Below, in pieces: positions 12,855 to 40,027 of a stretch of DNA of 40,027 nucleotides (its first letter is position 1; every line of letters starts with the position of its first letter). The stretch comes from Chitinophaga pinensis (GTDB taxonomy: Bacteria > Bacteroidota > Bacteroidia > NS11-12g > UBA9320). The notes beneath the pieces are model-generated. The model did not search any database, was not told where the DNA came from, and saw nothing but the letters and a program-made list of their open reading frames with translations. The translations under genes and the position numbers were made by a program. The stretch covers positions 1 to 40,027 of the forward strand of contig CAMDSC010000021.1 of NCBI GenBank assembly GCA_945907065.1, written 5' to 3'.

Positions 12855-14005
12855 CTAAGCAATCTTAAATTTGATTGGGAAATGCTCTTCCTTTATTTCA
12901 ACTGAAGCCTTTTCTCCAATTTTATAAAGAAGTTCTCTGTTTCCAGCATTGCTCATTTCTACAATACCATCCACATCTTTTTGGTTAAACGTTTTTCCCA
13001 AATTCATGCTATTAAGATTTTCTTGAGTTAGTGGACAGTTATAACGAAGGTAACTTAGTTTAGGGTCGCCTGAAATAACATCACCATTTAAATCTCCCAT
13101 TTCCATATCCATAGTTTTGGCAGTTGGCGAATTACTAAGCCATTGCAATACCAATTAATTTTGCCAACTGGCGTCCTGCATCAGCATATCCGGAACATTA
13201 GATGCCCAAGTGAGCAAGGTAGCCTCATCAATATCTTTTACCATTTTTTTGAAAACACTAAAACCGGTTCCTATAGAAACTACTAATAAATTATCTTCAC
13301 CAGTAGGCCAATGAAACGGAAAGCCTTTTAATGTTGCCACCATCAAAAGCGTTAGTGCAGGATTATTAGCCATACTCACTCCTCCATCTACAAATGCAGC
13401 CCGTTGCCCTTCCCCTACATCAATCATTTGAGGTACAAAGTATGTTGGAGCAGCTGAACTTGCACGAATGGCTTGCCATAAAGCTATATTTTATTGCGAC
13501 CATCGGCTGAGTCATAAAATTTACCTTCGGGATGATTAATCAAAGGCCAAATACTATTGGTATCCGCTCTTTTGGCCACCACACATAAGCCTGTTTTTAT
13601 TTTATCGCTTCCCAAAGTTATATCACCAAAGGCTGATTTTAATCCTTTTTCAAGATTAGCGTGGTTATAGCCTGCCTTTAAAAATTTAGCAGTTTCAAAC
13701 GGATTCCACCAACTATGTTTTTCTCCAAATATTTTGCCTCCTAAATCCATATATAGATTTTTTATTTCATCCACACTCATGCCAATGCATAATGCACCGG
13801 CTATTATCGAGCCAGTAGAAGTTCCTCCTATTAGGTCAAAATAATCACTTAGCCTGAAGTTTGGATTATTGCCATGTTGCTTTTTAAGGATGTCCTCCAC
13901 TTTTTTAAGATAGCCTAAGGTTAGTGCTCCACGGATACCACCGCCATCTAAAGATAAAATACGTTTTGGTCCGGGTGATTTGAATCGGTTTATTAAGTTG
14001 TTCAT
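12855..14005 (-). pseudogene. Patatin-like phospholipase, broken by a frameshift and a stop codon
   Basis: Three consecutive minus-strand pieces together make one patatin-family lipid acyl hydrolase of about 380 residues. Piece 1 (14005-13484) has the oxyanion loop DGGGIRG (residues 20-26) and the GTSTG nucleophile elbow (Ser63). Piece 2 (to 13155) has the catalytic Asp motif VDGG. Piece 3 (to 12855) completes the C-terminus, from VLQWLSNSPTAKT onward. Between pieces 1 and 2 the frame is lost in an A run (after DGRNK, about 13487-13492): adding one A restores NKNIALWQAIRASSAAPTYF. Between pieces 2 and 3 the frame is unchanged but a TAA (about 13155-13157) interrupts SWQN-stop-LVLQW, most simply from CAA or AAA. 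Two independent lesions argue for a true pseudogene rather than one sequencing error. Confidence 0.82.
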
Positions 14006-28548: not shown

Positions 28549-31500
28549 CTATTTTATCACCGTCACCGTTCCTCGCTGGTAATGTGTGCTGCGGTCCCAG
28601 CCGGTGTAGGTTACCTGCCAAATATAAACTTCCTGCCCCTTGCTGTCGTTGATATAATTGCCATCCCAATCCTGATGTTTATTTTCAGAATCAAATACTT
28701 TTTCGCCCCAGCGGGTATAAACCTGCATGTGATAGGTTTTTACAAATACCGGAACAAACCCCCAGGTTTCATTGAGGCCATCATAGTTTTTGGTAAACGC
28801 ATTGGGCACATGAAGCAATGGCGGCTGTATTAAATAAATACTGTTGCTGCGGCTTTGCGCCGAATAACCTTTGGGATTTTCATTGGCCACCACGGTATAC
28901 CAATACCCGCCCCAATCATAATCCAGTTCATGGTCGTCGTAGGTTCTTTGGCTGGCCAAAATAGAAAGGATGGGTCGCTGTGAGCCTGTATCTACCGAAC
29001 GTTCTAAGGTGTAAGTGCTAATGCCTGCCTGCCACTGGCGGTAAGGCTGCCAATCTAATACATGAAAAAATGGTTTGCTTTCGCCAGTAAGTATAATGTT
29101 ACAACCAATGTTGGATTTAACACTCGATTGCCCGCATTTATCATGCACTACTAATGAATAGCAATAGGACTGCGTTTGCACATCAAGGGTATTATCAACA
29201 TAAAAAGTATCATTAATACTTCCAAAATCTTTGACGTATTCAAAATTAAGAGTTGGTGTATTTACACTTCGGTAAATGGAATAGGTTCCAAAATCGGCCT
29301 CGGTACTTTTGAGCCAATGTATTGAAACATCTTTATTATTAACAACGGTTGCCGTAATTACTTTGGTAGGTTTAATGGGCGATTCACTTTCCTGAACGGA
29401 GGAAACTTTATATGACAAAGCACCTTCCACCCCACAAATATTTACAACCTTTAAATAATAGCTGTAATTTTTATTTCGAGGGTCGGTCACATTTTTATCC
29501 AAATATTTTCCATCAGCTACGGTTCTAAAAGTATCTATAACCGTGGTTTTTCCATCGGGAGAAATTTTATACAAAACGGTATAACTATAGAACCGTGAAG
29601 CTGGAAGTGCTGACCAGGAAAGCTGAATGTCGTCACCGTTTGTAAAGACCAAACAAATGGTTTCAGGTGGCGGCAAAACGGGCGGCGGGGTTACCAAAAT
29701 TTTTATTTTACCACTATTCGATTTAAAATCAGGGCAACCTCGGTCTCTAACTTCCGCATTTATAACAAACGTATCTTTACCTGCATGCACACACTTAGGC
29801 GACCATTTAAAATTGGAAACTGACTTAGCAACGCCATGCTCAGTAGCTGGAAACCGTATAAAATCTTTCTCAATATTTTGAAGGGATGTGAAAACTGTAT
29901 TTATAGTATCATCATCCGGGTCGGTTATTGTATAATCAAATAATAACGTATCAAATGCCATTATGGTAAAAAAGGTATCGCGGAGTTCGGGTTTTCGGTT
30001 TAGGTTTTCTACTGCAAACTTAAAAGCGGCATTGCTGCATCGTGGACTAATATTTTTTTCAGCATAAGCTCCCTTTGTAGTTGGAAAATCACTTATTGGC
30101 CCTACCTGATTTCCCATAGGACAACTGGAACAAACCGATTGGTAAATAACCCCACGTTTGTCAAACCTGCTTGTGCCACCATCCACATGGTCGGCAGTTT
30201 GAGTACCTCCAAAATAAGTGGCATACAGAAGATGTTTTAATTCCTTTGAAAAAACTAAGATATAAAAATCACTGCCGTCAGTAGTCTTTTGAAAAGCATC
30301 GGGTGTTATTGGTAGATTACTTGTGGTACTAAACGATTTTTCACTTGTTCTTCCTCCCCAACCTGAAATAAATACCCGATTACATTCGGCCACCATAAAG
30401 GCATTAATAGTAATATCCGGTCGGTTATCACCACCACCAAAGGTAGCACTGTAAATAACCGATGTTAAATCATGGTTAAGCATGGTTAAAAACTGCCCCG
30501 TGTTTCCTGTATTATAAACATTACCTTTAACCGGGATAGTGCCATCTGTTTGCCCTACAACATATACCCTGTCCTGGTCATCCAGCTCTAATGAAATTAT
30601 TTGATCGTATTTATTTGAACCAAAATAAGTGGCTTTTATCAAGGTTCTGCCATCGGCAGATATGTTGGCAATATATCCATCGGCAGTACCTCCCAAATAA
30701 CTGGGGTTTAAAGTACCTGCGGTATTTGATAAGCCTGCCCCGCTAATTCCACCCGAAACAAATATATTTTTACTTTTATCAAAATCAATACTATAAATAC
30801 TTGAATTTTTATCCCCCCCAATATAACTGGACCAATAAAGTTGCGATGCATCGGGCGAAAATTTAAAAATTAATCCTTGTTGAACTTGATTAGAATTCGT
30901 GGTTTTAAATCCGTTTTTTATATCAATATCATCCGACAACGTAGAAACTACGCCATACATATTTCCTGCATCATCACAAATAACATCGCCCCTAAAATTA
31001 TCAGCGTAAAAATACCGTGTTGGAAATAACTCGTTTAATCCATCATTCTTAGTTCCACCAAAAAATGTAGAACCTACCAAAGAATTCCCATTTGTACTTA
31101 ATTTTGTTAAAATAATATCTGACCCACCAGATTTAAAGGAGGAATAAGCAGAATTGGTTACCGGATAATCTCTTGAAAATGTAGAACCTAAAATAACCAG
31201 GTTTCCTGATTTATCTACCACAATGCTATGAGGATATTCGTTATCTACTCCGCCAATATAGGTAGCATACATAAGTTGCGATCCGTCGGCTGAATATTTA
31301 CTAATTGTTATATCACATGGAAAAACATAATAAGGATTAATATTATCATCCCTTCCACCATTGTAGGTTTGCATAAATGCACCGGGTGTTGTAGGGTATT
31401 TACCATTAGGAATTTCGGCATACGCTTCGGTAGTTATTCCTCCGGCATACAAATTTCCTTGTTCATCATAGGTGGCAGTAAACCCAAAATTATCGGCTGT

Positions 31501-32310
31501 AGTGCCTGAATAGGTTGAAAAAATTAAAATGGGATCAATAACTAAAGTTGATTTTGAATTGAAGAAATCTTCAGGAATATTGGTAAATGAAAGAATATTT
31601 CCCTCCAATTTCATATTAACCAAAACCGATTCACTGCCATTGGTTTTGCTTATCAAATAACTGGCCGGAACCATTTCGGTATAATCAATTACCGAAGTTT
31701 TAATTTTTAAAGCATTTCCTAATAACTGAAGTGCTTCGGCTCCATTATATTTTATTTGTATATCAGCCGGATTACTGCCAACTCCACAAATAAAATTATA
31801 CTTTAGTTCAATTCCATTCGATAAAAGCTCCAAATCAATATCCGTATAAAGTTCTTTTATTAGCAAACGATTAAATAGCTTTACATCGGTTGCCCACTTG
31901 GTTTTGTCATTACCCAAAAAATAATTATGTTTGGTAATTTGCTCTGATGATTCGCTAATATTTTGTTTCTCTATTTTGCCACCTATAAATTGTTGTTCAA
32001 TGCTGTGATACTTAATTTTTAAAGGTTCAGAATTTTGCTTTTTGAATAGTTCCAGCTTGCTATCATTAGCATGATGTGATTTTTCATACAGTTCCTGAAA
32101 TTTAGCATTATCATAAAACAGATAAGAAATTCCTTGTTCGGAAATTAAAACGTTACCTGAAACAATTGGCTTTGTATAAAGAATTTTTGAATCCAACTGC
32201 CCTTTGTTTTCAATGAATTGAGCGGATGTGTTGAAATAAAAATAAAGGAGAATAACTGATGATATTACTCTAAAGTACGGTCTTAATATTTCTAATACTT
32301 TAAAAGTCAT
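28549..32310 (-). CDS. Large T9SS cargo protein with SBBP repeats and gliding-motility-type C-terminal domain
   Basis: A 1253-residue secreted protein. The N-terminal hydrophobic segment (VISSVILLYFYFNTSAQ) is the signal, preceded by a longer than usual charged region. It is followed by FIENKGQLDSKILYTK, the opening of the DUF7948 domain that precedes SBBP repeats. Residues about 270-760 carry repeated seven-bladed-type units of the form YATYIGG...D or YFGG (YATYIGGVDNEY, GSTFFGGTKND, SATFGGGDNR, YATYFGGTQ), then Ig/fibronectin-like domains, and finally a CHU_C/gliding-associated domain: NAFTKNYDGLNETWGF, then VYTRWGEKVFDS and DGNYINDSKGQEVYIW. This ending is the type B signal for T9SS export. 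Function is probably adhesion or surface structure. The small barrel gene follows within 7 nt. Confidence 0.88.
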   Translation of the reverse strand: MTFKVLEILRPYFRVISSVILLYFYFNTSAQFIENKGQLDSKILYTKPIVSGNVLISEQGISYLFYDNAKFQELYEKSHHANDSKLELFKKQNSEPLKIKYHSIEQQFIGGKIEKQNISESSEQITKHNYFLGNDKTKWATDVKLFNRLLIKELYTDIDLELLSNGIELKYNFICGVGSNPADIQIKYNGAEALQLLGNALKIKTSVIDYTEMVPASYLISKTNGSESVLVNMKLEGNILSFTNIPEDFFNSKSTLVIDPILIFSTYSGTTADNFGFTATYDEQGNLYAGGITTEAYAEIPNGKYPTTPGAFMQTYNGGRDDNINPYYVFPCDITISKYSADGSQLMYATYIGGVDNEYPHSIVVDKSGNLVILGSTFSRDYPVTNSAYSSFKSGGSDIILTKLSTNGNSLVGSTFFGGTKNDGLNELFPTRYFYADNFRGDVICDDAGNMYGVVSTLSDDIDIKNGFKTTNSNQVQQGLIFKFSPDASQLYWSSYIGGDKNSSIYSIDFDKSKNIFVSGGISGAGLSNTAGTLNPSYLGGTADGYIANISADGRTLIKATYFGSNKYDQIISLELDDQDRVYVVGQTDGTIPVKGNVYNTGNTGQFLTMLNHDLTSVIYSATFGGGDNRPDITINAFMVAECNRVFISGWGGRTSEKSFSTTSNLPITPDAFQKTTDGSDFYILVFSKELKHLLYATYFGGTQTADHVDGGTSRFDKRGVIYQSVCSSCPMGNQVGPISDFPTTKGAYAEKNISPRCSNAAFKFAVENLNRKPELRDTFFTIMAFDTLLFDYTITDPDDDTINTVFTSLQNIEKDFIRFPATEHGVAKSVSNFKWSPKCVHAGKDTFVINAEVRDRGCPDFKSNSGKIKILVTPPPVLPPPETICLVFTNGDDIQLSWSALPASRFYSYTVLYKISPDGKTTVIDTFRTVADGKYLDKNVTDPRNKNYSYYLKVVNICGVEGALSYKVSSVQESESPIKPTKVITATVVNNKDVSIHWLKSTEADFGTYSIYRSVNTPTLNFEYVKDFGSINDTFYVDNTLDVQTQSYCYSLVVHDKCGQSSVKSNIGCNIILTGESKPFFHVLDWQPYRQWQAGISTYTLERSVDTGSQRPILSILASQRTYDDHELDYDWGGYWYTVVANENPKGYSAQSRSNSIYLIQPPLLHVPNAFTKNYDGLNETWGFVPVFVKTYHMQVYTRWGEKVFDSENKHQDWDGNYINDSKGQEVYIWQVTYTGWDRSTHYQRGTVTVIK

Positions 32311-32388: not shown

Positions 32389-33324
32389 TCAAGGGGTAAA
32401 ATCAAAGAGTTTAACAGTATAGTAGTAGGTTTTATTTCCTTTTAATTTTATGGTTACATCAATTTTATCTCCTTCTTTAAGTTTTGATGTATCCAATTCA
32501 GGAGTCCAAACTAAAGTTGGTAAACCATAGCCTTCCACTACAGTTTCAAGCTTTAGTTTAATAGGCACTTTGCCTATCATCATGGTTACTTGAGCATCTT
32601 TCAAATCATTATAAATACTGAACGACCATTTTTTAAACAAAAACATTTTATTGATATAGCCGTTATAAGGCCAGGCTATAAAATTGCTAGAATAATATAA
32701 CGTATCACGAGTTCGGGAGTCATCAAGAGCCCATAAGACGCATTTGGATTTAGTGCTTCCATGGCCCCAAACCATGCTAAAAGGATATAACATCCAACGG
32801 CGATTGCCAAGAGTTGGGTGAGTTTGATCGGCCACAAATGAAGTAACCGCTAATGTAGTGGTAGCATTTTGGGTTAGCAAACCATATTTGGCAGCTTCGG
32901 CTGCTTCAGCACCATAGCAACTCCAAATTTTTGGTATTTCATGGTTCAATTTGTTATTGCTTTCCATTACCAATGCAGCCCTTTGGCACCAATCATTAAG
33001 TTGTGAATCTAAATAAATTGGAGGCACACCAGCACTTACTCTAAAATAATTTATCCGGTCTTCAACTTTCTGTTGAATATAATTAGGAATCACACCCATT
33101 TTACAAGCTTTGGTATCACCTATCCATTCATATTCCAAAATTGTTTTGGCTCCATCCTGAATTTTAGCAATTCGGGTATTGTAATAATTGATTCTAAAAT
33201 TTTCCTTAGAAAGGGCTATTTCAATCTGATCAAGTTTAATGTCTTTCGAATCCTTTAATTTTTCTGCCTGTAATATTTGAGAGGCTTTTACTAACTCACC
33301 TTCCTTAATATAAGCATTTAGCAA
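32389..33324 (-). CDS. CAP (SCP/PR1-like) domain protein, probably the 3' half of a TPR-CAP gene
   Basis: From TTG 33324 this gives 311 residues containing a CAP domain (about 105-235): VEDRINYFRVSAGVPPIYLD, LNDWCQRAALVMESNN, then NRRWMLYPFSMVWGHG, and a C-terminal beta domain. CAP proteins are normally exported, yet there is no signal peptide here. The same frame stays open upstream to 33474 for 50 more codons without any ATG, GTG or TTG, encoding a helical stretch (SRDRFSINTIFKGIKLPAPE). It overlaps the end of the upstream TPR gene at a run of ten A (minus strand, 33450-33459). A -1 slip there would join the two frames into one 766-residue secreted TPR-CAP protein. TTG 33324 is therefore a formal start only. 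Confidence 0.7.
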   Translation of the reverse strand: MLNAYIKEGELVKASQILQAEKLKDSKDIKLDQIEIALSKENFRINYYNTRIAKIQDGAKTILEYEWIGDTKACKMGVIPNYIQQKVEDRINYFRVSAGVPPIYLDSQLNDWCQRAALVMESNNKLNHEIPKIWSCYGAEAAEAAKYGLLTQNATTTLAVTSFVADQTHPTLGNRRWMLYPFSMVWGHGSTKSKCVLWALDDSRTRDTLYYSSNFIAWPYNGYINKMFLFKKWSFSIYNDLKDAQVTMMIGKVPIKLKLETVVEGYGLPTLVWTPELDTSKLKEGDKIDVTIKLKGNKTYYYTVKLFDFTP

Positions 33325-33434
33325 GGCATAAAGATTTTCTTTATAAATGATTTTGAATTCGGGTGCTGGAAGTTTTATTCCTTTAAAAATAGTATTAATA
33401 GAAAACCTGTCACGAGAAGTAAGCGGCTTTTTTA

Positions 33435-34688
33435 TTATTTCGTTAATAATTTTTTTTTTAGCTCCGCTAACTCTTTAGAGGCTGGATAATCAGTGGTAGC
33501 TTGCGTAATGAGCAGTGCCAAAAATCCGGGTGACTCATTTTCCTTGGCAAATTCAATAATTTTAATCCACCTGGCGGCTATTTCTTTTTCCGTAGGAACA
33601 AGAGTATCATTATTAACAGAGGTCTTAATAATATATTTTTTAGCTAAATAAGATGCCGCCTTGTCGTGAGTGTTGGTGTAATAATAATCACTCATTTTCC
33701 AAAGCACATTTTCAGCAAAAGGTTGAAGAAAAATATCAATTTTTTTCAGATTTTCAAAGGCAGGATTATTACCCTTTAATGCTTTATTTCTAGCAAATTG
33801 AAATATCATAGTATCCGTCTCAGCAGGATTTGGGCCATCAATAGAATTGCGGATTAGATACATTGCCAAAGCATTTTCTTTTTTTATTAAAAAAGTATCT
33901 GCAGGATTATAAACAAGTGCTTTACGAACTATTTCCATCATAAGCGACGAAGGTGGTTCTTTAGCTATTTGGTCTTTAGCTATAAGGTATTGATAGAAAT
34001 TTACTTTTGAATTTTTATCACCAAAAACCTTTCGGGCTAATTCTAAATAATAATTAGCTGAATCGTAATTCTTCTTTTTCCAATACACATCCGTCATAAA
34101 AAGAAAAGGGTCTACTATTGGATTTTCAATTTCCTGACCTGAATTTTTGGTATCTTCATATCCACTTATTAATTTTTTATAATACGATTTGGCAGAAGCC
34201 GTATCACCGCTCATTTGATAGGATTTGCCAATCATAAAAAAAGCAATTATATCCTTATTAAGTCCGTAGGAAATAGTATAAAGTTTGATGGCTTTAGGGT
34301 ATCTGTTTACCTTATATTCCTCCTCGGCCAAGGCGTTATTTATTTTTACTAATTCAGCTATAAACTCATCATACTTACCTTCATACTTTTTATCCTTATC
34401 TCTTAGTTTTGCTTTGGCCACCATTTTACAGGCATCTTTAAAAGCCTCCGGATTTTTTTTAACAAAAAAATCTTGCTTTGATAATTCAAACAAAGAAATG
34501 GCATGTAAATAATAAGTTAAAGGGTCTTTTTTTGTAACCTCATTTTCAAGTGCATCCGATGTTAATTTATAGGCTCTTTCAAAATAACCTTCGTCAATGG
34601 CCTTTTGAGCTTTATCGAGATTTATCTGCTGCGATTTTGCAATTCCAGCTGATAGGAAGAGACAGATTAAAATTATTATTCTTTGCAT
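33435..34688 (-). CDS. Secreted TPR-repeat protein (probable 5' half of a TPR-CAP gene)
   Basis: A 417-residue exported protein. The signal peptide is MQRIIILICLFLSAGIAKSQ. Tetratricopeptide-like helix pairs follow: AQKAIDEGYFERAYKLTSDA, YPKAIKLYTISYGLNKDIIA, AFFMIGKSYQMSGDTASAKS, TDVYWKKKNYDSANYYLELA. TPR domains mediate protein contacts in the periplasm or at the outer membrane. The promoter is one of the best in the window (-33 and -7 at 34726-34729 and 34699-34706), with the -7 box 10 nt from the ATG. It ends ELKKKLLTK-stop right after an A10 tract; in the -1 frame translation would continue into the CAP domain. Either the stop is real and the downstream frame is orphaned, or slippage yields the long form. 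Confidence 0.8.
   Translation of the reverse strand: MQRIIILICLFLSAGIAKSQQINLDKAQKAIDEGYFERAYKLTSDALENEVTKKDPLTYYLHAISLFELSKQDFFVKKNPEAFKDACKMVAKAKLRDKDKKYEGKYDEFIAELVKINNALAEEEYKVNRYPKAIKLYTISYGLNKDIIAFFMIGKSYQMSGDTASAKSYYKKLISGYEDTKNSGQEIENPIVDPFLFMTDVYWKKKNYDSANYYLELARKVFGDKNSKVNFYQYLIAKDQIAKEPPSSLMMEIVRKALVYNPADTFLIKKENALAMYLIRNSIDGPNPAETDTMIFQFARNKALKGNNPAFENLKKIDIFLQPFAENVLWKMSDYYYTNTHDKAASYLAKKYIIKTSVNNDTLVPTEKEIAARWIKIIEFAKENESPGFLALLITQATTDYPASKELAELKKKLLTK
33450..33459 (-). other. A10 homopolymer at the TPR/CAP frame junction (possible slippage site)
   Basis: On the minus strand the codons read CTA AAA AAA AAA TTA in the TPR frame and GCT AAA AAA AAA ATT in the CAP frame. The TPR frame stops at 33435-33437, a few codons later; the CAP frame runs on for 354 codons. 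Ten A residues can cause ribosomal or RNA-polymerase slippage, and are also a common place for indel mutation or sequencing error. Confidence 0.55.
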
Positions 34689-34698
34689 TTTTATTTTT

Positions 34699-34729
34699 CA
34701 AACATAGGGCGAAAATTTACATTTTCAAA
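34699..34729 (-). promoter_or_regulatory. Complete -33/-7 promoter of the TPR(-CAP) gene
   Basis: On the minus strand, TTTG (34729-34726), a 19-nt spacer and TATGTTTG (34706-34699) match the Bacteroidota consensus at the expected spacing. ATG 34688 is 10 nt past the -7 box, so the leader is about 5 nt. Confidence 0.7.
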
Positions 34730-35147: not shown

Positions 35148-38100
35148 CTATTTTGAAATAAATACCTTTTGATTCCACACCACACCATCATTTTTCACCC
35201 TCATCCAATACATTCCATCGGCCACATTTAAATCTAAACTATTCACTTTCCCAACCTTTTCAACCCTTCCAACCATTTCACCCAAAAGGTTAAAAATTTC
35301 AATGGAAACATCTTTAGAAGGATTCTCAATTTCAATGGTAAAACTTCCAGAATTTGGGTTTGGGTAAATTTTAAAGCTTTGTTGAGAAAGCTTTAAAATT
35401 CCTACAGAAATATTTTTGCAAGTTTGGCTGCTACAACCGGAAATATCCGTGGCTGTAAGGCACACCTTGGTTTGGTCGGAGGATTTGATGGTGTGAGAAT
35501 AAGTGGTAGCCGAGGTTTTGGCACTGTCAGTAGTTCCAAATTTCCATTGGTAGGAGTTGCCGGCTTTGATAATTTTAAGGTCTACTTTGGTGCCATTGTA
35601 AGTATAGCTAAAATCAGAACTTGGATTTTTGTTGATAGTAACGGCTTTGGAAATTGAATCTGCACAACCATTTGCAACTTGAGCTACAAGTGTAACATTA
35701 TAAGTTGTTGTGCTTGAAATTTGGAATTTGTGCTTTGGATTTTGGAATTTTGAGGTTTGACCATCTCCAAATTTCCAGTTGTAACCTGTGGCATCTTGCG
35801 ATTTATTGATAAAAACAGCGGAGTCTGTTTCACACACGTCCGTTGCAGTAAAATCAGCCTTTGATTGCGGTTTTATTACCACATCTTTTTTTATTGTATC
35901 GGTGCAACCGTTGCTTGCAGTGGTGGCTAAACTTATTTTTTTAGTTCCTGCAAGGGTAAATAAATACGACGGATTTTCGAGATATGAGGGGCTTTCGTTG
36001 TTGAAATTCCAATGAAAAATTGTGGTGATGGGGCTGTTGGGTTTTGTACCGGTAAACTGAAATTTTGTAACCGTCCGGCTACACGCCAAATCCCAGCTGA
36101 AATCAGCCTTGGGACTTGGGTTTACGGTGATTGCCTTTTTAACGGTATCATTCAGGCTGCAATTATCTTTTGTGATTAATTTTAAGGTAGAGGTTAAGGC
36201 TGAGGTTAAGGTTAAGGATGAGGTGGTGTCGATTTGTTTGCCGTTTAGCAACCAATAAAATTTATAATTTTTACCAATTCCACCAGTGGCTTGGGCGGTG
36301 TAGTTCAAGGTTTTTCCTGCACAAATGATGGTATCTCTTAAATTTGTGATGGCTTTTAACTCAAGCTTTACGTTAACTTCAAACACAGCCGTATCTCCCA
36401 AGGTTTCACAACCATCGTTCACTATCAGTTGAATTTTTAAAGGGTTTTTTGTTAAAAATTTTAAACTATCCGTACTTGAAAGAATGGAATTGGTTACCAA
36501 ATCCTTCCACTGATAGCGGTATTGTTTGGGAACTCCACCGCTGGCTGTGGCTTTGTAGTTTAAAAGGTTTCCAAAGCAAAGGGTGGTGTCGCGATAAGTA
36601 GATTTTATTATTACCGGCTTGCGTTGGCTGATGGTTAAATAAGCGGTATCGGCTTTGTTGGTGCAGCCATCTTTGAGTATGATGGCCAGTTTTTCCAATG
36701 GGTCGCTTGGGGTATAGGTTAACGTATCGCGCAATACATTTAGGCCTCCTTTCATAGTGAACCACAACTTAGGATTGCTCACAAAATACCATTGAAATTT
36801 ATAGTTTATAGAATCACCACCTGTAAAATAATACGGAACTCGCAACGCTCCATCCCCGCAAACGGTAGTATCATTAAAGGCCAAAACCGTTTTTAAGGCC
36901 GGCCTCACTATTACTTTTTTAAAGGCGGTATCGGGTGCACCGCAGCCGCTACTATCGGCTATTATTATTTTGTAAAGGGTGTCTTTAATTGGCCAAGCCC
37001 AAGGTTGACGTTTGGTGCTATCGTCCATTCGGTATTTTGGACTCCAAGTCCATTTGGTGCCGCCGTATGTGTTTAGTTTAATGCTGTCGCCCATGCAAAT
37101 GGTTTCCCGTAGGCCAGGGTCGGCTTTGTCGCGAGAGTAGATTAATAAGCGGAGGGTATCTCTTAAATAATAGCTTTGCACTGCTGGTTTAGTGCTAAGT
37201 ATTCTAATTCTGTAATTGGGAGATGAACTGACATTGAACATGGGCAAAACGCCTTTTATTGTTCCATCTTTATTAGTTTTTAGTCTCCCTAATTCACGGT
37301 ATCCATTTTCAAAATTTCCGTTTTCATCGCTTAATTGAGCTATGAAAAAATTGGAGGTATCAAAATCTCCTAATTTGCTATAAGGTATTTTTATGGTATC
37401 TCCTGCACAGTATGGGCCGTTGCTTACTTTGCCACGGGTAATGGAATAGTCGGTAATTTTGGTGAGCCAGCCGTCAAACTGATTACAAGCACTGCAACTG
37501 CTAATATAACCTTTAGAGCTGTCTTGGTGTTTGCCTAGTTTTATTTTTCCCCTGAACCACCCAGAAGCAAAAACGGATTTTTCTGCAATCGCATCCATAC
37601 AAAATGCATATCCATTTGAATTTCCAGCCGTTGACCATAAAACATTACCCAAAAAATCTGTTTTAAAAAGTATAGGAGTTACGCCTATAGCGGGGGGAGA
37701 AAGGATATTATTTTCTATCAAAATCTTTGTATTGATAGCACCTACGTAATAAAGATATCCTCCACTATTTTTTACCTTTGTAACAAGGTTTCCACTTCGA
37801 GTTGTGTCCAAAATTTTTGGGCGGAAAAACCACCGGGTTTGAAACGAAGTGGTTATAGAAGCTGCAAATAATTCATTATTTTTATTTACACTTAAAGTTT
37901 TAGGATATTCTGGGGCAATTTTTTGTTTACCCCAGGTAAGGGTGTCAGAAAAATGCCCGCCTATATAAAGGAATTCTCCATCTGTAGTAATACATCTTAT
38001 TCGTGTGGAAGGCTTTTTACTATAAGTAATGAACCGTTTTTTATATTTACCTACGGTATCGGTTTCGGCTACAAATCCTCCGGCGTTAAAGGTATCTTTG

Positions 38101-38991: not shown

Positions 38992-39474
38992 TTATGGTTT
39001 TATTTCTACAAGCAAATGAACATCTCCACTTGCAGGAGGGGGAGTGCAAATTCCAGTTCCAAATCCCCCAGCACATGTAATACTTGAAGTACAGGAGGTG
39101 CAAGATGGTGTAACTGCGGTATAAGGAAAGCTTCCCCCTGAACCAAAAGGGATAGTAGTGCAACCTGGTTTAGATAAGGTTATATAGTCTGGAACTCCGG
39201 TACCACAGCCTTTAATCACACTGCCACCCGTTGAAGGGCAAGAATAGGTTGCAAGGACATTTGGAGGTGAAGCATTATCATAAACGGTAATAGTCCAGGT
39301 ACAAGGTAGGGTGGTGGTTGTGTTCACTACATCAATTGTAAAGGTTTGCGCTTTTGCTTTAAATCCAAAGCTTGTAAAAGCTAGAACAGCTAATACTAAA
39401 ATTTTTTTTTTGAAGAAATTTCTCGTGTTGGTGTTTTCACCAATCTTGGTTGGGTTTGTTGTTTGTGTTTTCAT
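38992..39474 (-). CDS. Small cysteine-rich secreted protein of unknown function
   Basis: A 160-residue protein I do not recognise. It has a long N-region (MKTQTTNPTKIGENTNTRNF) before a signal core KKKILVLAVLAFTSFGFKAKAQ. The mature part is rich in Thr, Ser, Gly, Pro and Cys: PCTWTITVYDNASPPNVLAT, YSCPSTGGSVIKGCGTG, then CTSCTSSITCAGGFGTGICT and PPPASGDVHLLVEIKP. Nine cysteines, several in CxxC-like spacing, suggest disulfide bonding or metal binding outside the cell. There is no sorting domain. It sits between two PKD/T9SS proteins with nearly identical ends, all on the same strand. Its own -7 box (TAAGTTTG at 39498-39505) gives a leader of about 18 nt. Confidence 0.7.
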   Translation of the reverse strand: MKTQTTNPTKIGENTNTRNFFKKKILVLAVLAFTSFGFKAKAQTFTIDVVNTTTTLPCTWTITVYDNASPPNVLATYSCPSTGGSVIKGCGTGVPDYITLSKPGCTTIPFGSGGSFPYTAVTPSCTSCTSSITCAGGFGTGICTPPPASGDVHLLVEIKP

Positions 39475-39618: not shown

Positions 39619-40027
39619 TTAGTGATTGATTTTATCACGGAAAGAAACTAGAATTTTTTGATTCCAAACCGAATTACCATTTTTCACCCTCACCCAATAC
39701 ATTCCATCGGCCACATTTAAATCTAAACTATTCACTTTCCCAACCTTTTCAACCCTTCCAACCATTTCACCCAAAAGGTTAAAAATTTCAATCGAAACAT
39801 CTTTGGAAGGATTCTCAATTTCAATGGTAAAACTTCCGTTGTTAGGATTAGGGTAAAGTTTAAACCCGTCGGATTTTAAAAGCTTTAAAATTCCTACCGT
39901 TACGTTTTTACAGGTTTGGGATGAGCATCCGGAAATATCTGTAGCAGTAAGGCACACCTTGGTTTGGTCGGAGGATTTGATGGTGTGAGAATAGGTGGTG
40001 GCCGAGGTTTTGACACTGTCTGTAGTT
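39619..40027 (-). CDS. PKD/T9SS type A sorting-domain protein, C-terminal part (partial)
   Basis: The frame is open from the window edge to the stop at 39619-39621, so only the last ~135 residues are seen and the start lies beyond 40027. The first visible part is the end of a PKD-like domain (DSVKTSATTYSHTIKSSDQT, VCLTATDISGCSSQTCKNVT), followed by a type A sorting domain (FKLYPNPNNGSFTIEIENPS, IFNLLGEMVGRVEKV, VADGMYWVRVKN). Protein and DNA are nearly the same as the end of the gene at 35148-38897. Its last residues (ILVSFRDKINH) run past the usual VFISK ending of the paralogue, so the tail has diverged or been extended; effects on sorting are unknown. Confidence 0.88.
   Translation of the reverse strand, partial: TTDSVKTSATTYSHTIKSSDQTKVCLTATDISGCSSQTCKNVTVGILKLLKSDGFKLYPNPNNGSFTIEIENPSKDVSIEIFNLLGEMVGRVEKVGKVNSLDLNVADGMYWVRVKNGNSVWNQKILVSFRDKINH

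Follow-up and report, generated by a model that had tools for sequence, protein, structure and literature searches.

The window analyzed here is a stretch of 40,027 nt from an assembly of Chitinophaga pinensis. On its minus strand, a frame encoding a TPR-like protein overlaps a frame encoding a CAP-domain protein at ten consecutive As (A10), which raises the question of whether these are two genes, one broken gene, or one gene whose parts are joined in the course of expression. The preliminary description of the locus offered three readings, namely two products made by slippage, a recent split by a single-base change, and a homopolymer read error. The conservation of A10 in all six species of the genus with a covered junction, together with purifying selection on both frames, favors the first of them: in all likelihood, this is one secreted TPR-CAP gene that is kept out of frame at A10, with polymerase slippage yielding two products.

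The overlap of the two frames at A10 had been placed correctly to the base (Table 1). The frame-0 codons across the tract are CTA AAA AAA AAA TTA TTA ACG AAA TAA, hence the short form ends with LLTK; in the window's gene the stop is directly followed by a second TAA. In the -1 frame the same region is read as CTA AAA AAA AAA ATT ATT AAC GAA ATA, and reading the codons reproduces the continuous protein of 766 residues suggested earlier (413 + 353, with ELKKKIINEIIK around the junction). The -1 continuation comprises the end of the helical repeat region, then the CAP domain and a C-terminal beta region. The open CAP frame extends from 50 codons ahead of TTG 33324 to the stop at 32389-32391, and the claim that these 50 codons contain no ATG, GTG or TTG holds.

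Table 1. Features of the TPR-CAP locus (window positions) and the dnaX tract of the same genome.
Feature	Position	Strand	Remarks
Frame 0, secreted TPR-like protein	33435-34688	-	417 aa, stop included; the short product under standard decoding
Signal peptide MQRIIILICLFLSAGIAKS	34632-34688	-	judged by eye from the sequence, without a predictor
Bacteroidota-type promoter-like motif TTTG-N19-TATGTTTG	34699-34729	-	just upstream of the TPR ATG
A10 tract, frame-0 phase (Y)TA AAA AAA AAA	33450-33459	-	identical length, phase and codon position in six species
Frame-0 stop (TAA/TAG)	33435-33437	-	12 nt past A10; six of six species
-1 continuation	32389-33459	-	353 codons after three Lys, stop included
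CAP (cysteine-rich secretory protein) domain, PF00188	32782-33060	-	Pfam profile above cut-off
Own-genome dnaX tract	G000:C2:208508-208519		L052, L115

The TPR frame begins with MQRIIILICLFLSAGIAKSQQ. The signal peptide ascribed to it is present, and the single-frame orthologues discussed below have similar, hydrophobic signal-like N-termini. The promoter described ahead of this frame corresponds to a promoter-like motif, and a motif of this type (TTTG-N17-23-TANNTTTG) is found in all six species, with one match per species across the leader and the gene, at -39 to -42 from the TPR ATG; the same search of leader and gene in the six species revealed none ahead of the CAP part. Matches of the TPR frame to TPR_2, TPR_6 and TPR_12 (residues 130-178) are weak and fall under the Pfam cut-offs. 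The C-terminal part resembles the CAP superfamily in scoring above the Pfam cut-off (31-32 bits against 21.1, E-value 4e-7 to 5e-7), but differs in that the predicted CAP domain is joined to an N-terminal TPR-like repeat region, and no NCBIfam model for a TPR-CAP protein was found. The AlphaFold model of the -1 frame part is of poor confidence (mean pLDDT 48, CAP region below 50), the helices just past the junction being the exception. In annotation, such a pair would be called a TPR protein and a truncated CAP protein without a signal peptide, which is a pitfall.

The product of the gene directly downstream (28549-32310, minus strand) is 1253 aa long and carries DUF7948 together with a CHU_C type IX secretion signal. 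An ORF of about 1250 aa follows TPR-CAP both in the genus and in G010, so that the gene order is conserved.

The relatives and the family were searched with the CAP part, and two groups emerged. In the window's genus, the CAP frame is separate and has about 360-400 codons in the contigs that cover it. Outside the genus, every family genome with the junction covered has a single frame of about 760-800 residues with the CAP domain at its end; thus, single-frame TPR-CAP homologues do exist in the other genera of the family. The -1 fusion aligns with them through the junction without a gap, and all of them lack an A-run at the junction site. Since the other genera are collinear and single-frame, the fused protein represents the ancestral state, from which the split is derived. 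No orthologue has a CAP part that starts by itself and carries a signal peptide, which would have spoken for an independent protein. Apparent splits outside the genus were rejected, being caused by contig ends (G043, G053, G012) or by a run of N in the assembly (G010) and not by a frame break.

The genus consists of freshwater Bacteroidota, and seven of its genomes were sampled. The junction is covered in six (the window's own genome, G006, G004, G003, G001 and G002), while the contig of the seventh, G005, starts about 30 codons past it. Five genus genomes also have MAG records in a second collection, where at least two naming series are represented; all named genus records are MAGs, and four of the five carry isolate names of one style. 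The title Chitinophaga pinensis on MAG records of the genus (L061, L063) is probably a mislabelling: the genomes are small, about 2.4-3.0 Mb, and cluster with Bacteroidetes MAGs. The six species are 66-93% identical and fall into two clades, hence they are not six independent tests; both frames are kept in all of them. Each has exactly ten As at the same codon, flanked by T on the 5' side and by T or C on the 3' side, with the same -1 offset and with the frame-0 stop (TAA or TAG) at the same distance past the tract. The offset tract, whose conservation among homologues the preliminary description had left as a point to check, is thus conserved within the genus, and the nine or eleven As that it associated with a plain single gene are seen in none of the six assemblies.

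T-A10 is the longest invariant stretch in the codon alignment of the six genes. In particular, the Leu column within it is the sole one of 35 invariant Leu columns with final A in all six species, and the Ile column overlapping the frame-0 stop is the sole one of 20 invariant Ile columns with ATA in all six. An invariant A-run of at least the observed length (counted as 11, as the last A is read twice) arises in 0.3% of permutations of synonymous columns. The conservation of A10 exceeds what is explained by the amino acid sequence and by chance.

Both frames are under purifying selection. Pairwise dN/dS values for the six species, taken where synonymous change is unsaturated, range from 0.07 to 0.17 in the TPR frame, from 0.10 to 0.25 in the first 117 codons past the junction and from 0.04 to 0.13 in the rest of the -1 frame. 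The first 42 codons of the -1 frame, which lie before any possible start in the window's gene, yield 0.11-0.44, this range being less well determined because of few codons. The -1 frame has no stops in the first 117 codons, compared with 6-19 in the other two frames. Synonymous divergence among the genus species is mostly above 1, and purifying selection maintained over such saturated divergence excludes the recent single-base split. The first ATG, GTG or TTG past A10 is found at codons 41-52 in four species, at codon 77 in G004 and at codon 120, adjoining the CAP domain, in G001. Given purifying selection and the lack of a conserved start, the region between the tract and CAP is evidently translated in the -1 frame and reachable only from the TPR frame; the downstream frame is coding and depends on the shift.

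The frequency of such tracts was estimated by pattern searches in the 2.7 Mb genome, which yielded 142 exact A9 tracts (the first 30 were inspected individually), 12 exact A10 and one run of A11 or more. The sharp drop from A9 to A10 matches expectation, because polymerases slip and long runs are selected against; such selection has been described for many bacteria (PMC1088944). In the A10 context readout, which covered ten of the 12 tracts (L055 and L057 lie near contig ends), only the TPR-CAP tract and the one in dnaX (a 568-codon frame) are situated well inside long genes. L057 is the A10 at 39402-39411 (minus strand) of the window, near the N-terminus of a 160-aa ORF (38992-39474) and just ahead of the hydrophobic part of its signal peptide (FFKKKILVLAVLAF).

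In all 27 readable relatives (L116-L142), dnaX contains 9-12 consecutive As close to where domain III ends, and in 23 of them the run has exactly ten. The gene is open through the run in 15 relatives, with the slipped frames ending within a few codons, and split in the other 12, where the -1 frame runs on for about 200 codons. Hence dnaX appears to be an order-wide slippage site that switches between two arrangements. Since the run is present in all 27 relatives, A10 very probably functions as a slippage element in the order, and, judging from the sequences, TPR-CAP very probably uses this element in the two-ORF arrangement. The single-frame sister genera, the split in all sampled genus members and dnaX as an internal control provide a clean before-and-after comparison.

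The proposed mechanism is as follows. The only promoter-like motif is the one upstream of the TPR start. RNA polymerase would slip on the ten As, so that some mRNAs gain one A or lose two. On the unslipped mRNA, ribosomes would stop four codons past the tract and produce a secreted TPR-only protein, while on the slipped mRNA they would enter the CAP domain, and the product would be a secreted TPR-CAP protein of 766 aa, similar to the one in the neighboring genera. Single-base insertion predominates among the slips on A- and T-runs of E. coli and Buchnera and increases exponentially with the run length (PMC5574713). We infer that slippage occurs in transcription rather than on the ribosome, as well as its efficiency and the usefulness of both products.

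The alternative that survives best is that the frame break arose by accident, became fixed in the common ancestor of the genus and is tolerated via leaky slippage, the short product having no role. It shares the slippage mechanism with the preferred reading, so that its probability overlaps with that of the latter, and it differs in the usefulness of the short form; we consider it rather unlikely. In its favor, Blochmannia and Buchnera provide known cases of such rescue (PMC3017870), and the ancestral protein is the fused one. Its weak point is the persistence of the break. Changes in homopolymer length are frequent mutations, yet no species has returned to an in-frame tract despite the extent of synonymous divergence, and the frame-0 stop has been kept as well. 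Moreover, this is not an A-run-rich endosymbiont genome, its 2.7 Mb containing only 13 A-runs of at least ten.

The two parts could also be joined by programmed -1 ribosomal frameshifting on A_AAA_AAA inside A10, the mRNA being unedited. The heptamer is present in the tract in the right phase (X_XXY_YYZ), and it is a known motif of -1 ribosomal shifts (PMC3711429). However, seven As are enough for the ribosome, while ten are kept, including the third base of the Leu codon, and no stimulator of ribosomal shifts is conserved alongside the tract. No conserved structure was found downstream of A10 (consensus fold energy 0 kcal/mol for the six species), the window's own sequence has no stable downstream fold (z about -0.7), and a search for known RNA families likewise gave none. 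As for a conserved SD-like sequence, GGAG occurs upstream of the run in four of the six species only. Given the excess of As over the seven required, the lack of conserved signals on either side of the tract and the rarity of A-runs of this length in the genome, transcriptional slippage seems likelier, and we regard ribosomal frameshifting as improbable.

Phase variation, that is, a tract length varying among cells at the DNA level and switching the CAP part on and off, is very unlikely. A-runs readily undergo replication slippage, and phase variation often affects surface proteins (PMC3711429), but a switching tract should vary among at least some of the genomes, whereas all six consensus assemblies have ten As.

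Even less probable is a cytoplasmic CAP protein translated apart from the TPR part, with initiation at TTG 33324 or coupled to termination at the TPR stop. This TTG is in frame, and the four species with early start-like codons would fit, but the start is not conserved in the other two, and the codons upstream of it evolve as a protein. Moreover, the CAP frame has no signal peptide, while a lipoprotein-like signal (LINSCKK) is carried by the genome's standalone CAP paralogue (G000:C1:235975-236811, L002), which is about 30% identical and not joined to a TPR region.

Finally, a sequencing error or a recent pseudogene, which came into question as the homopolymer junction stems from a 63-contig draft assembly, has practically no probability left: the tract has the same length and offset in six separate MAG assemblies of different species and therefore is not the error of one assembly, and a pseudogene is ruled out by purifying selection on both frames.

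Slippage of polymerase at A10 can be compared with several studied systems. In Thermus thermophilus dnaX, transcriptional slippage on an A9 run yields both tau and gamma (PMC1088944, PMC3711429); dnaX genes of the two-ORF type that carry ten As have been assigned to transcriptional slippage too (PMC3711429). As in dnaX, the TPR-CAP gene has a run of 9-10 As inside, the short product would end a few codons later and the long one would be made via the other frame; as in the two-ORF variant, the long product would require slippage. Unlike the replication protein DnaX, TPR-CAP is predicted to be secreted, and its split is confined to one genus among those searched.

In tssM1 of Citrobacter rodentium, with an A11 run, both forms and their ratio matter (PMC4256274). 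Here, too, the A-run is situated just before the premature stop, and in tssM1 added As restore the full length. At that, tssM1 encodes a type VI secretion membrane protein of a gammaproteobacterium with an experimentally proven mechanism, while TPR-CAP is known from sequence. The parallel provides a lead, suggesting that the ratio of TPR-only to TPR-CAP may be useful.

Slippage on a U-run is needed for the longer product of Shigella mxiE (PMC1088944). Both genes have two overlapping frames, which slippage joins (in TPR-CAP, putatively) into a functional long protein, but the mxiE run consists of T/U and the product is a regulator, whereas TPR-CAP has a run of A and would be secreted. Blochmannia genes contain more than a hundred runs of at least nine As, and the breaks in them are seen as rescue (PMC3017870). 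TPR-CAP is similar to the poly-A genes of Blochmannia and Buchnera in that frame breaks in A-runs are conserved across species without gene decay, and differs from those of Blochmannia in the rarity of A10 in its genome.

Among the known slippage genes, TPR-CAP thus stands as a new, well-supported candidate for programmed slippage. To our knowledge, programmed transcriptional slippage is well supported in few bacterial genes that are cellular and non-mobile. Tentatively, the genus may have installed the A10 element of the order's dnaX in a second gene, with a TPR-only to TPR-CAP ratio that is set by slippage and selected; if so, A10 would be a built-in stoichiometry device for an exported protein.

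Two more observations were made elsewhere in the window. ORFs at 35148-35330 and 39619-39957, one of them at the contig end, have near-identical C-terminal sequences (FTIEIENPSKDVSIEIFNLLGEMVGRVEKVGKVNSLDLNVADGMYW). A patatin-like phospholipase motif (SLDGGGIRG...) extends over three consecutive ORFs on the minus strand (13484-14005, 13155-13427 and 12855-13154; in total 12855-14005), which looks like a broken gene.
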